Source: Muribaculaceae bacterium (lineage in GTDB: Bacteria > Bacteroidota > Bacteroidia > Bacteroidales > Muribaculaceae). Taken from it: 42,003 nucleotides of DNA. This document shows, piece after piece, positions 4,014 to 7,140 of the stretch (position 1 is the first letter of the stretch; each line of letters starts with the position of its first letter). Location of the stretch: the NCBI GenBank assembly GCA_029055345.1, contig JAIDDJ010000053.1, positions 1 to 42,003 on the forward strand, in the 5' to 3' direction. Both the position numbers and the translations under genes were made by a program. The notes below the pieces were generated by a model that saw only the letters and a program-made list of their open reading frames with translations, had not been told where the DNA came from and searched no databases.

Positions 4014-4688
4014 TCAGGACTTACTAAGAAATTCGAGGGCCATTTCGAGACGTTCGTTGCCATACTGGAAATGGTTGCCCCTCACGGAGCGGAATTCAGT
4101 CGAAATACCATTTGACTTGAGAGTGGATATCACCGATTCGGTATCTTCCCCCACGCTACGGAATTCGGGCACCGGGGATTTACTCTCCTGGTCTCCCAAA
4201 GAAAAATATGCTCTTCCCTGCTTATGGGGTATCTTCTGCTTAGAGAGCCACTCGGTGAATCCTTCATACCAGAACGACCCGGAAATAGATGCGATGGAGC
4301 GGAACAAATCGCATTCCACCCATTGCCACAGCGTAAAGAGTCCTGAAAGGGAAATGCCAAGCAGGTCGTATTCGTAATCCTTATGGTTGATTCCCATCAA
4401 ATCATTTATTTTCGGAATAACATCCGATCGCAGAGTGGCGAGGAACTCGGCTGCAAGTCCCTTGAAGTCGGGCGACCCGGCGGGCACTCCGGGAGCAGGC
4501 CAGGGCGTCAGGTCGTTGTCCCAGTCCATACCTGTAATGACCACTAAAGATGAGTCATAGCGTTTGGAAGCATCATCAACCCATTTCCCGGTGGCTTCGA
4601 GAGGAGAGAGCACGTAAATAATCCTGGTTGACTCTTCATTTCTTGCCCAGAGGCAGGTGAGGTTTCCTATTTGGGTTTTATAAGCCAT
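4014..4688 (-). CDS. Alpha/beta-hydrolase, esterase-like
   Basis: A 224-residue cytoplasmic protein of the alpha/beta-hydrolase fold. GISLSGLFTLW (about 111-121) corresponds to the GYSLAGLFALW nucleophile elbow of esterase-D-like hydrolases, with Ser113 as the likely nucleophile. SLGDQESKSP supplies the likely acid (Asp166) and RGNHFQYG the histidine (His206), so the triad looks complete. Substrates of this family vary (acyl esters, siderophore lactones), so a thioesterase or ester-cleaving role in the adenylation pathway is only inferred. Its ATG overlaps the stop of the acetyltransferase gene by one base, showing tight coupling. Confidence 0.75.
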   Translation of the reverse strand: MAYKTQIGNLTCLWARNEESTRIIYVLSPLEATGKWVDDASKRYDSSLVVITGMDWDNDLTPWPAPGVPAGSPDFKGLAAEFLATLRSDVIPKINDLMGINHKDYEYDLLGISLSGLFTLWQWVECDLFRSIASISGSFWYEGFTEWLSKQKIPHKQGRAYFSLGDQESKSPVPEFRSVGEDTESVISTLKSNGISTEFRSVRGNHFQYGNERLEMALEFLSKS

Positions 4689-5140
4689 TACTCTTCACTT
4701 TTAAGTTTCATCATATCTTTCATTTCGCCGAAGCCGATAGAAGAGTAAAGCTCTCTGGCAATGTCGGTGGTTTCAAGATAAATTTTTTTGCAATTGCGTT
4801 TTTTAGCCTCGTTGACGAGGTGGCGCACCACAGTATGTGCGACTCCTTCCTTACGGAATGGTTTGCGCACGTAAATGTTCATCAGATATGCACATCTGCC
4901 GGTCTCATTATCAGGGGAGGGGAGTTCCTCGCTGAAGCAGAGGGCACCGCACCCGACATCCTCGCCTTCGATAGATGCGATGACGGCCAAGTGGTTGCCC
5001 GAAGGGACGGCCCGCTCATAATAATCCCTGTTGGCCTCTATTAGCGCCTTGGAAGGTTCTTCGCCAAATACATTGTTTATCACTTCAATACGCCATCTGA
5101 TAAGCGTGTTGATGTCTGTGACGGGTCGTAAGGTGATCAT
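4688..5140 (-). CDS. GNAT-family N-acetyltransferase
   Basis: A 150-residue GNAT domain spanning the whole protein. The acetyl-CoA pyrophosphate-binding motif A is seen as LMNIYVRKPFRKEGVAHTVV (about 88-107), followed by the beta-5 strand IYLETTDIARELYSSIGF near the C-terminus, both typical of the fold. It overlaps the adenylation gene by 4 nt (ATGA), and its stop overlaps the start of the hydrolase gene. The acceptor amine is unknown. Because the upstream enzyme activates an amino-acid-like carboxylate, this enzyme might acylate the same substrate or, more speculatively, use the acyl-adenylate; neither can be decided from sequence. Confidence 0.85.
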   Translation of the reverse strand: MITLRPVTDINTLIRWRIEVINNVFGEEPSKALIEANRDYYERAVPSGNHLAVIASIEGEDVGCGALCFSEELPSPDNETGRCAYLMNIYVRKPFRKEGVAHTVVRHLVNEAKKRNCKKIYLETTDIARELYSSIGFGEMKDMMKLKSEE

Positions 5141-6573
5141 TTGTATTCTCCCTCCTTGAGCACTTTAGGCAATTTATCCATATCCACTTTCCCTCGCCTT
5201 GTAACCGGTATATTATCCACTTCAATGAAGAATTCCGGAATCATAAAATCAGTAAGTTTCGAGCGCATCTGTTTCTTTAGTTCAAGGAAAGAGAAATTCT
5301 TTGCCGAAACAATGTAAGCTACAAGAAATGCAAGGCCGTTTGCATCTTCGAAAGCCCGGACTATACCACGTTCGACACCCTGATATTCATTGAGCACATT
5401 CTCCACTTCATCGGGTTCAACTCTTTTACCGAGAATCATCACCTGCTGGTCACGTCGGTGCTGGAAAGCGAAATTGCCATCGGGAAGGACGTATCCCATA
5501 TCACCGCTTCGGTAGAAGCGAGTGCCGTCAGGTAGAGTCACGAAGTTCGATTGTTCGGGAGGATTCCCGAGATAGCCCCTGCTGACTCCTTCACCGAATA
5601 TGCATATCTCACCCGGCGTGCCGTCGGGCACTTCGTTGAAGTCGCTGTCAAGAATCTTTACCTCCACTCCTTTTATCGGTTTGCCGATTAAAAAAGTTCC
5701 ATCATCAAGCGGGGTGGCATTATCCACCCGAAAATAGTTGGAGCAGACCGTGGTTTCCGAAGGGCCGTAGGTATTATAGATTTTAATACCCATATTCTTC
5801 AGGCGCGAAATATAGCTTGCGCGAATCACATCGCCACCGCTTATGATGAGCTTTATGCTAACCGGCAATTTCGGCAGGCGGTTAAGGTCGGCAAGAAAAT
5901 AAGGGAAGCCGTCAAGAATGGTAACTTTGTGGCGCTCTACGAACTCCAGAAGGCCTAAAAGTGAACCATTATGCACTTCTGTGGTCGGAATGGCAAGTGC
6001 GGCACCGTTGAGAAGAGTGGTGAACACTTCCTCGACAAATATATCGAATGAGCAGACCGAATACTGCAGCATCACATCGCCGGGTCCGGTATGGAATTCA
6101 TTTTCGAACGCCTCGCAATAATTGACCACGGAATGATTTTCGACCACCACTCCTTTCGGACGTCCGGTGGTTCCGGACGTATAAAGGACATACGCTACAC
6201 CATCGGGAGTCGACAAATCCTCGCTGAAAGAGGGTAATGGCTTAAGATCTTCGCAAAAAGCATCGTCAATAATAAGTTTTACTCCGGCCGACTTCATCAT
6301 ATACTTTATCCGGTCATGGGGGAGGGACGGTTCTGCCGGAATATAAGCGGCTCCGCTTTTAAGCACGGCAAGCATTGCGGCAATCTGCTCGGCGCCATGA
6401 TTCATCACGATTCCGATGTAATTCTGCTTATCTTTGGGGAAGCGGGCAAGAACAGCATTAGCCATACCATCCAGTTCGGCATAAGTTATTGTACGTCCGT
6501 CTTCCTTGACCGCGATTGCATCGGGATTCTTATCAACCTGCTCTTTAAATTTCGAGTATATTGTGTTTTTCAT
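5137..6573 (-). CDS. Stand-alone amino-acid adenylation enzyme
   Basis: A 478-residue AMP-forming ligase of the NRPS adenylation/DltA type. Core motifs are present: A3 YTSGTTGRPKGV (131-142), A4 SFDIFVEE (175-182) with the substrate-anchoring Asp177, A5 NTYGPSETTV (267-276), A7 YRSGDMGYVLPDG (354-366), A8 from RRDQQV to EPDEVE (373-391) and A10 RRGKVD with catalytic Lys462. It should form an aminoacyl-AMP. There is no condensation, carrier or thioesterase domain, and no carrier-protein gene nearby, unlike dlt operons. The downstream GNAT and hydrolase genes overlap it. The only upstream sequence is a long leader with attenuator-like pairing (6682-7092). Gene symbol withheld because DltA function is unlikely without dltBCD. 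Confidence 0.85.
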   Translation of the reverse strand: MKNTIYSKFKEQVDKNPDAIAVKEDGRTITYAELDGMANAVLARFPKDKQNYIGIVMNHGAEQIAAMLAVLKSGAAYIPAEPSLPHDRIKYMMKSAGVKLIIDDAFCEDLKPLPSFSEDLSTPDGVAYVLYTSGTTGRPKGVVVENHSVVNYCEAFENEFHTGPGDVMLQYSVCSFDIFVEEVFTTLLNGAALAIPTTEVHNGSLLGLLEFVERHKVTILDGFPYFLADLNRLPKLPVSIKLIISGGDVIRASYISRLKNMGIKIYNTYGPSETTVCSNYFRVDNATPLDDGTFLIGKPIKGVEVKILDSDFNEVPDGTPGEICIFGEGVSRGYLGNPPEQSNFVTLPDGTRFYRSGDMGYVLPDGNFAFQHRRDQQVMILGKRVEPDEVENVLNEYQGVERGIVRAFEDANGLAFLVAYIVSAKNFSFLELKKQMRSKLTDFMIPEFFIEVDNIPVTRRGKVDMDKLPKVLKEGEYK

Positions 6574-6681
6574 AAAGTGTTTTTCATAAAAGGTTTTGTT
6601 ATATTCTGATTTTTAAACAAATCCGAATAAACGATGGTTCGCGGCCCAAGTAAAACTCCTATCCTGAAGCACTTTATTAAT

Positions 6682-6782
6682 AAAAAGCGTAGGAATCTGT
6701 ATCTGTTGCCGTCCTACACTTCGAGGCTTCTCGCATTGCCCATCAATAGTCGGACGGCAACTGCAGAAGCCCACGCCAGTAT
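6682..6782 (-). terminator. Terminator-like long hairpin in the adenylation-operon leader
   Basis: Read on the minus strand, GCGUGGG (6776-6770) pairs with CCUACGC (6693-6687), UCUG (6767-6764) with CAGA (6699-6696), and GUUGCCGUCC (6761-6752) with GGACGGCAAC (6714-6705). This gives 21 bp with two internal loops, followed directly by UUUUU (6686-6682). The 37-nt apical part can form two more small hairpins, AUUG/CAAU and CGAG/CUCG. The left arm (6763-6782) can instead pair with the transcript's 5' end, so this terminator could be conditional. The remaining 108 nt to the adenylation start show nothing recognisable. Confidence 0.6.
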
Positions 6783-7092
6783 ATGCAATCAATATTCACG
6801 GTTTCGAATTTCGCAACTCGAACATTATATGCTTAATCACGTCTTAACTTGAAGGACGCAACAATTTGCATAATGATACCGGGAAATTATTATCACATAT
6901 CCACGGGCATCTACCGTTGCTTAATCCCTGACTATTGATTGAAATTTTGCGAGAATTTCGAAGTGTCAAGAATAAGCGCGGATAAACGCTTTCGTACCAA
7001 TATTTATACATCCCGCCCCACTCGCCACAGACTTTAAATCACAAGGTCATGACGACCCGATCATACTGGCGTGGTCTGCGTGGCAGTCTGCT
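6682..7092 (-). ncRNA. Candidate structured leader RNA / sRNA upstream of the adenylation operon
   Basis: A predicted transcript of about 410 nt, bounded by a consensus promoter (7097-7127) and a hairpin with U5 at its end. Near its 5' end CCACGCCAGUAU (7074-7063) is perfectly complementary to AUACUGGCGUGG (6782-6771). The pairing continues as GCAGA (7079-7075) with UCUGC (6767-6763) across a 3-nt bulge. This long-range helix closes about 280 nt and shares bases 6763-6776 with the terminator-like hairpin, so the two structures exclude each other. There is no convincing leader peptide; the short AUG frames hit stops within a few codons. I see none of the conserved cores of RNase P, tmRNA, SRP RNA or known riboswitches. 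It could be an independent sRNA or a cis leader. Confidence 0.5.
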
Positions 7093-7096
7093 GTCG

Positions 7097-7127
7097 CAAA
7101 TTTATAATAAAATTTTCAAAATTACAA
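7097..7127 (-). promoter_or_regulatory. Leftward Bacteroidetes-type promoter for the leader RNA
   Basis: Minus strand: TTG (7127-7125, in context CTTG), 20 nt, then TAAATTTG (7104-7097), an exact TAnnTTTG box. Transcription would begin at about 7092, just before the first arm of the long-range helix. That exact placement strengthens both predictions. Confidence 0.65.
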
Positions 7128-7140
7128 GATTTTAATAAAA

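Follow-up and report, generated by a model that had tools for sequence, protein, structure and literature searches.

A stretch of 42,003 nucleotides from a Muribaculaceae bacterium, referred to below as the window, carries on its minus strand a structured leader RNA of about 410 nt, read directly from the sequence at 7092–6682. It is a member of a large class of RNAs that Rfam does not list. From comparison of its copies, it is probably a cis-acting transcription attenuator and a member of a new leader RNA family found across the order Bacteroidales. Its parts are arranged, 5′ to 3′, as a Bacteroidetes promoter, a 5′ hairpin, a long rod and an intrinsic terminator; across the family, these parts stay together as a unit, its rod measuring about 255 nt, and the median distance from the unit to the start codon that follows is 59 nt. 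A first-pass annotation of the window had proposed a leader RNA that ends in a terminator and whose helices exclude one another, and that proposal is supported by the comparisons described here.

The promoter lies at 7097–7120 (this and all features below are on the minus strand), with TTTG at 7117–7120 resembling a −33 element and TAAATTTG at 7097–7104 resembling a −7 element. It is found where the annotation had placed it, and 149 of 170 family copies likewise have the motif TAnnTTTG in the 190 nt that precede the rod, against a mean of 16.35 in shuffled sequences. The 5′ module follows at 7000–7092; it is delimited by folding and by homologous modules, with a putative start, and can form its own hairpin or pair with the core of the rod. 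The latter pairing uses the anti-core strand of the module, CCACGCCAGUA at 7064–7074, and the core, UACUGGCGUGG at 6771–6781. The helix is perfect and continues after a bulge, as the annotation had described for the first of its two helices, of which the anti-core strand is the 5′ side.

The rod, which is the conserved repeat unit, occupies 6682–6992 and comprises two arms, 6891–6992 and 6682–6789, separated by a variable tip. It is also the lowest-energy fold of the leader, one that the annotation had overlooked, extending from 6992 to 6684 with the 5′ arm (6992–6891) paired to the 3′ arm (6789–6682). Rod helix 1 has the 5′ side AAAGCGU (6986–6992, partner 6684–6690; 98.2% of cells paired) and helix C the 5′ side UCUCGCA (6948–6954, partner 6729–6735; 98.4% of cells paired). 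Two further helices are hypervariable: helix A (5′ side 6958–6966, partner 6716–6724), which is copy-specific, and helix B (5′ side 6930–6938, partner 6743–6751; 86.3% of cells paired). The 3′ arm holds the core, which is the target of the 5′ module, and also helix E (5′ side GGCUUCU, 6765–6771, partner 6725–6731), helix D (5′ side GUUGCCGUCC, 6752–6761, partner GGACGGCAAC, 6705–6714) and the intrinsic terminator (6684–6722). The conserved terminator stem, 6712–6717 with 6689–6694, which the window copy lengthens to 11 bp (6712–6722 with 6684–6694), is followed by the remaining part of the U-run. The rod measures 311 nt in the window, compared with about 255 nt in most copies. Its variable tip (6793–6885) exceeds that of most copies by about 55 nt and contains extra hairpins. 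The leader folds with z = −4.96 against dinucleotide shuffles and its folds recur with compensatory changes in homologues, which upholds the earlier contention that the pairing did not arise by chance.

That the element is repeated had also escaped the annotation. A DNA search with the leader matched four further places in the window's genome and 56 of 101 relatives; the majority of matches start near query position 138–141 and stop at 449. These multicopy matches rule out a purely local reading of one leader and one operon. A covariance model of the rod 3′ arm only (R1; 118 positions, 50 sequences) identified eight copies in the window's genome and, in a sample of the genus, 317 matches in 56 of 61 genomes (median 5, maximum 15). 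The model matched 55 of 393 genomes in an order sample, representing 31 of 207 genera, and three of 395 in a phylum sample, these being the window's own genome, another from that order and a third from elsewhere that matched weakly (E = 5.7e-4). A 15-base pattern occurred in at least 117 stretches of named genomes. Of the 80 pattern stretches listed, R1 matched 44, and 43 of these 44 bear Bacteroidales names; the matching genomes include Duncaniella muris DSM 103720, Paraprevotella clara YIT 11840, Hallella mizrahii and Phocaeicola oris. The other match, a strong copy in a record titled Pseudoflavonifractor (L074), probably lies on a mis-binned Bacteroidales contig. A Paludibacteraceae record (L086) has the pattern and no R1 match. 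Among 37 further pattern loci (L137–L173), 21 chosen by title were scanned and 19 matched R1. Counts exclude L005 and L007, which repeat L004 and L006, and L063 and L066, which have cut ends.

In Rfam 15 (4227 families), the whole window at gathering scores yielded tRNA only, and positions 6560–7140 yielded no match at E ≤ 1, in agreement with the annotation, which had recognised no known RNA family. Structured RNAs from the same phylum are represented in Rfam by Bacteroidales-1 (RF01693), Bacteroides-1 (RF01694) and Bacteroid-trp (RF01692), as given in the part of PMC2864571 consulted; the window leader differs from these in matching none of the 4227 families. No description of the leader was found in the literature searched, although an entry among the candidates tabulated in PMC8040213, which in the section consulted reports 3161 of them, is possible.

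Conservation of the rod lies as much in its pairing as in its sequence. In an alignment of 47 copies, the rod contains 78 pairs, with 94.9% of 3635 cells paired, and 27 of these pairs show change on both sides. There are 258 two-sided cells, compared with 77.6 (sd 8.8) after shuffling, and slid registers of the rod give 35.5–45.5% of cells paired and 34–82 two-sided cells. Helices A and B vary in sequence among copies while complementarity is kept: all four Watson–Crick pair types are present at helix A alignment columns 31, 32, 33 and 36, and seven of the nine helix B pairs have changed on both sides. Variation is almost absent from the middle of the rod (GCAACGGUAGAUGCCC with GGGCUUCUGCGUUGC), and at each of two rod pairs a U-G pair stands in 43 of 47 copies. 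Each arm also pairs best with its own partner, the energies being −56.4 against −40.0 kcal/mol for permuted partners in 68 close copies, and −54.1 against −35.7 kcal/mol in 87 divergent ones; the own pairing exceeded all 30 swaps in 62 of 68 and 74 of 87 copies, respectively (22 of 177 copies were omitted, the script being unable to place the rod start, core or module). On this covariation, the structure of the rod is under selection.

Alternative helices have been preserved as well. When 3′ strands were permuted over 174 distinct copies (10 of 184 rows were left out), the local terminator stem had 110 two-sided cells, against a permuted mean of 40.8 and maximum of 58. The corresponding values were 55 for helix D (mean 9.1, maximum 34) and 27 for helix E (mean 3.8, maximum 10). 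The second hairpin of the annotation can be found in the sequence, both as the 10 bp of helix D and as a 7-bp base formed by GCGUGGG (6770–6776) and CCUACGC (6687–6693) and followed by UUUUU. Its 10-bp part covaries, as just described; the base, in which the core pairs with the terminator 3′ strand, gave 13 two-sided cells against a permuted mean of 7.1 and maximum of 14 over the same 174 copies, and as a terminator base it is ruled out by this lack of covariation.

Pairing between the 5′ module and the core is likewise maintained by compensatory change among homologues. The helix is preserved despite substitution in L111 (GCCCACACC/GGUGUGGGC), L202 (CCCACGCUAA/UUAGCGUGGG) and L219 (GCAGAGGCC/GGCCUCUGC), and in L006 the pairing is altered yet kept. 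Across 150 copies, modules bind their own cores at −24.9 kcal/mol, compared with −23.4 for permuted cores (sd 0.21, 20 permutations) and −18.6 for shuffled modules; 27 of 177 copies, in which the rod start, core or module was not placed by the script, were omitted. The longest uninterrupted helix averages 8.19 Watson–Crick pairs with the own core and 7.19 with different cores (n = 135, p = 1.3e-12; 31 of 177 copies could not be placed, and 11 others were dropped because the module was short or different cores were too few). Copy by copy the difference is modest: just 10 of 135 modules did better with their own core than with all of the different ones. The anti-core strand of the module overlaps helix E in most close relatives, so that the order of folding events may differ between copies. 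Judged by these patterns of substitution, selection acts on no fewer than three folds, namely the rod, the local terminator and the pairing of the 5′ module with the 3′-arm core.

The relative stabilities of these folds were computed for the window leader, with the proviso that pseudoknot-free energies for RNAs of 400 nt are rough: −138.8 kcal/mol for the rod, −134.3 with the terminator alone enforced, −131.8 with the terminator and helix E enforced and −132.1 for the second hairpin of the annotation. The pairing of module and core is present in the fold with the terminator and helix E. Among 40 sampled copies, the base of the rod was within the lowest-energy fold in 36 and absent in four, and penalising it cost a median of 7.1 kcal/mol (0 to 14.9). 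The alternative folds contained a local terminator of at least 5 bp in 28 of the 40 copies and lacked one in 12. In computed folds of the nascent transcript, an RNA ending at 6765 prefers the pairing of module with core, while one ending at 6722 prefers the rod.

Two features of the family are those of an attenuator: a covarying intrinsic terminator lies between promoter and gene, and the conserved rod excludes the terminator by using both of its strands. Together, the computed and nascent folds suggest a bistable leader in which formation of the rod would lead to read-through; we infer this polarity from the fact that the rod's 5′ arm pairs with both terminator strands. The stop fold would consist of the 5′ module paired with the core plus the terminator, joined in the window copy by helix E. 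As it emerges, the core may pair first with the 5′ module and, should that pairing persist, the rod would be unable to zip and transcription would stop. The annotation had read the layout as one of anti-terminator and terminator. The terminator and the exclusive helices bear this out, but it is doubtful that the first helix acts as the anti-terminator, since in the window copy this helix forms alongside the terminator in the alternative fold and is a competitor of the rod, the fold that hides the terminator. The balance between the folds might be shifted by a signal common to all of the cell's copies, such as a protein or small molecule recognising the near-invariant core.

The element is closely tied to the starts of genes. 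With nine duplicate copies left out, an ORF start lies within 400 nt of the U-run in 167 of 175 distinct copies, at the median distance given above, and none was found in the other eight; it falls 20–100 nt after the U-run in 137 of 175 copies, compared with 11 of 163 in a mirror control. Many copies also have a short GCC...GGC hairpin with a G-rich loop about 15–45 nt after the U-run and before the start codon, which is perhaps a translation element. No conserved leader peptide was seen in a search by eye. In three loci with truncated terminator ends (L014, L034 and L048), no ORF starts within 200 nt (none, 347 and 213, respectively), as if the leader decays after gene loss; some intact copies also have no start.

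The proteins encoded first downstream are unrelated to one another. They number 162 and fall into 113 clusters, the largest of which holds 17 BspA-type leucine-rich proteins. Pfam and PADLOC were applied to 150 of 156 downstream proteins, using the first 340 residues of each; the main Pfam groups were LRR_5 (14 proteins, the largest), NusG (4) and PEGA (3). By a crude hydropathy test, 80 of 113 first proteins of at least 150 aa have a hydrophobic N-terminus, compared with 139 of 388 other ORFs. Among the PADLOC models listed (25 of the 87 that matched), each was hit by one of the 150 proteins, and a defence theme among the downstream genes was rejected because the matches are too scattered. 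A fixed partner family was also rejected: homologues of a recurrent downstream protein (L187) are accompanied by the RNA in four of 26 loci. In two genomes (L013 and L029) the gene behind the RNA encodes a small protein rich in cysteine and glycine, similar in appearance to a precursor peptide. Four copies stand directly before genes that are most likely of the NusG family (L128:3022-3717, L212:1660-2337, L225:4270-4968 and L227:1129-1872). These neighbours might be the upxY genes of capsule-type operons, and the RNA may serve as the attenuating leader of some capsule loci.

The family shares with transcription-attenuating riboswitches and leader attenuators a promoter, a structured 5′ leader, exclusive helices, a terminator and a nearby gene. 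It is unlike them in that a single RNA class stands before 113 clusters of first proteins, and in its putative antiterminating fold, a rod of about 255 nt in which two helices are hypervariable. A shared downstream pathway, which is usual for riboswitches and not absolute, is not seen here, given the 113 clusters and an LRR_5 group of 14 in 150 as the largest, and the downstream genes point to no ligand. One RNA class before so many clusters implies that the signal does not come from the pathway of the downstream gene.

Such a signal could be a specialised NusG paralogue of the UpxY or LoaP type, binding the nascent leader and blocking termination. The four NusG-family neighbours speak for this, as does the likeness to capsule operons, in which, according to the portion of PMC7819879 consulted, UpxY keeps transcription from terminating prematurely within the 5′ leaders that precede upxY. 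LoaP similarly reads a leader hairpin, according to the part of PMC12691694 consulted. Both systems resemble the present one in their long 5′ leaders, premature termination and accessory operons, and differ from it on two counts. The LoaP signal described in that part of PMC12691694 is one small hairpin, whereas here the whole leader is conserved. A paralogue would also be expected in every genome that uses the RNA, but in nine of the 18 searched genomes with the RNA just one NusG match was obtained, presumably to the housekeeping protein, with the caveat that the Pfam model would miss a paralogue that is too divergent. Single-NusG genomes include G686 and G509, with eight and seven RNA matches, and RNA-free genomes likewise have one to three NusG matches. 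A NusG paralogue is therefore probably not generally needed; as a general requirement it was rejected on these counts, and as an account of the family it is unlikely.

The palindrome might instead act as DNA, as a mobile or repeated element. Integron attC sites and MITEs are imperfect palindromes found in many copies beside unrelated genes, and the present element is like them: it is multicopy and dispersed, its imperfect palindrome ends in AAAGCGU and ACGCUUU, and its neighbours are unrelated. An integron attC site is located at the 3′ end of its cassette gene; the element described here precedes its gene, carries its own promoter and a conserved terminator, and keeps a consistent strand and distance to the gene. 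The standing U-G pairs and the covariation of the terminator stem also argue against a role as DNA. Mobility was looked for in phage and plasmid collections, where the window's rod found no match, and of 70 viral stretches bearing the pattern one matches R1; carriage by phage or plasmids was accordingly rejected. The single match, to the full model, lies near the end of the fetched viral stretch (L301:517-633, IMGVR_UViG_3300021319_000137). With this evidence on either side, a mobile element is very unlikely.

The copies could also be trans-acting small RNAs, each with its own promoter and terminator, that precede genes by chance. A terminated product of about 410 nt and the presence of unlinked copies in one genome would suit this. 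Against it stands the tight spacing to the next start codon. The three truncated loci point the same way, having neither an intact terminator end nor a start within 200 nt, though some intact copies likewise lack a start, and conserved pairings that hide the terminator are unexpected in a stand-alone RNA. We regard this explanation as improbable.

The annotation had gone on to propose that the RNA senses the substrate or product of the enzymes encoded next to it. The leader does lie directly before that operon (4014–6573), which comprises genes for an adenylation protein (5137–6573), whose first codon is 108 nt past the U-run, a GNAT protein (4688–5140) and a third protein (4014–4688), a hydrolase by the annotation's guess, for which neither Pfam nor NCBIfam gave a match. 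In relatives, the adenylation protein has orthologues that are 68–73% identical (11 fetched loci) and, where shown, have the GNAT and third genes alongside. The RNA is present in none of the 11 fetched flanks, which cover about 1.5 kb in ten cases and, at L257, 158 nt on the upstream side, and in none of nine wider stretches (two from additional genomes) that reach 2.6–8 kb upstream. G056, which is among the 11 genomes, has a copy about 1.9 kb upstream of the adenylation orthologue (L042, G056:C98). There, a PEGA gene and then a second gene follow the RNA, and beyond them, on the same strand, lies the adenylation operon. The window's operon is not a fixed partner of the RNA. As a guess, the leader probably came to precede a resident adenylation/GNAT operon by rearrangement, and loss of intervening genes of the PEGA and second-gene type in the window's lineage would explain the longer spacing. 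Absent from these orthologous loci, placed before two other genes in G056 and found ahead of 113 clusters of first proteins, the RNA is most improbably a riboswitch specific to this pathway.

The preferred reading, a cis-acting attenuator belonging to an order-wide family, can be extended tentatively to a general RNA gate, a proposal to which we give rather less than even credence. One leader class would gate accessory genes in Bacteroidales, standing before more than 100 clusters of unrelated genes that encode secreted and surface proteins, capsule-type regulators and a few defence-like functions. A single cell-wide signal would act through the conserved core, acquired genes would join the regulon by gaining a leader, and the hypervariable complementary helices would stop the copies within one genome from pairing with each other.

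If this is true, 31 of 207 sampled Bacteroidales genera would carry a class of switch without an Rfam entry, at a median of five matches per genome in the window's genus, and that switch would precede genes that often encode hydrophobic N-termini, as in secreted proteins. The family would also provide a natural collection of bistable RNAs of 400 nt for folding studies. Identification of the signal would give a handle on the expression of surface and accessory genes in gut symbionts.
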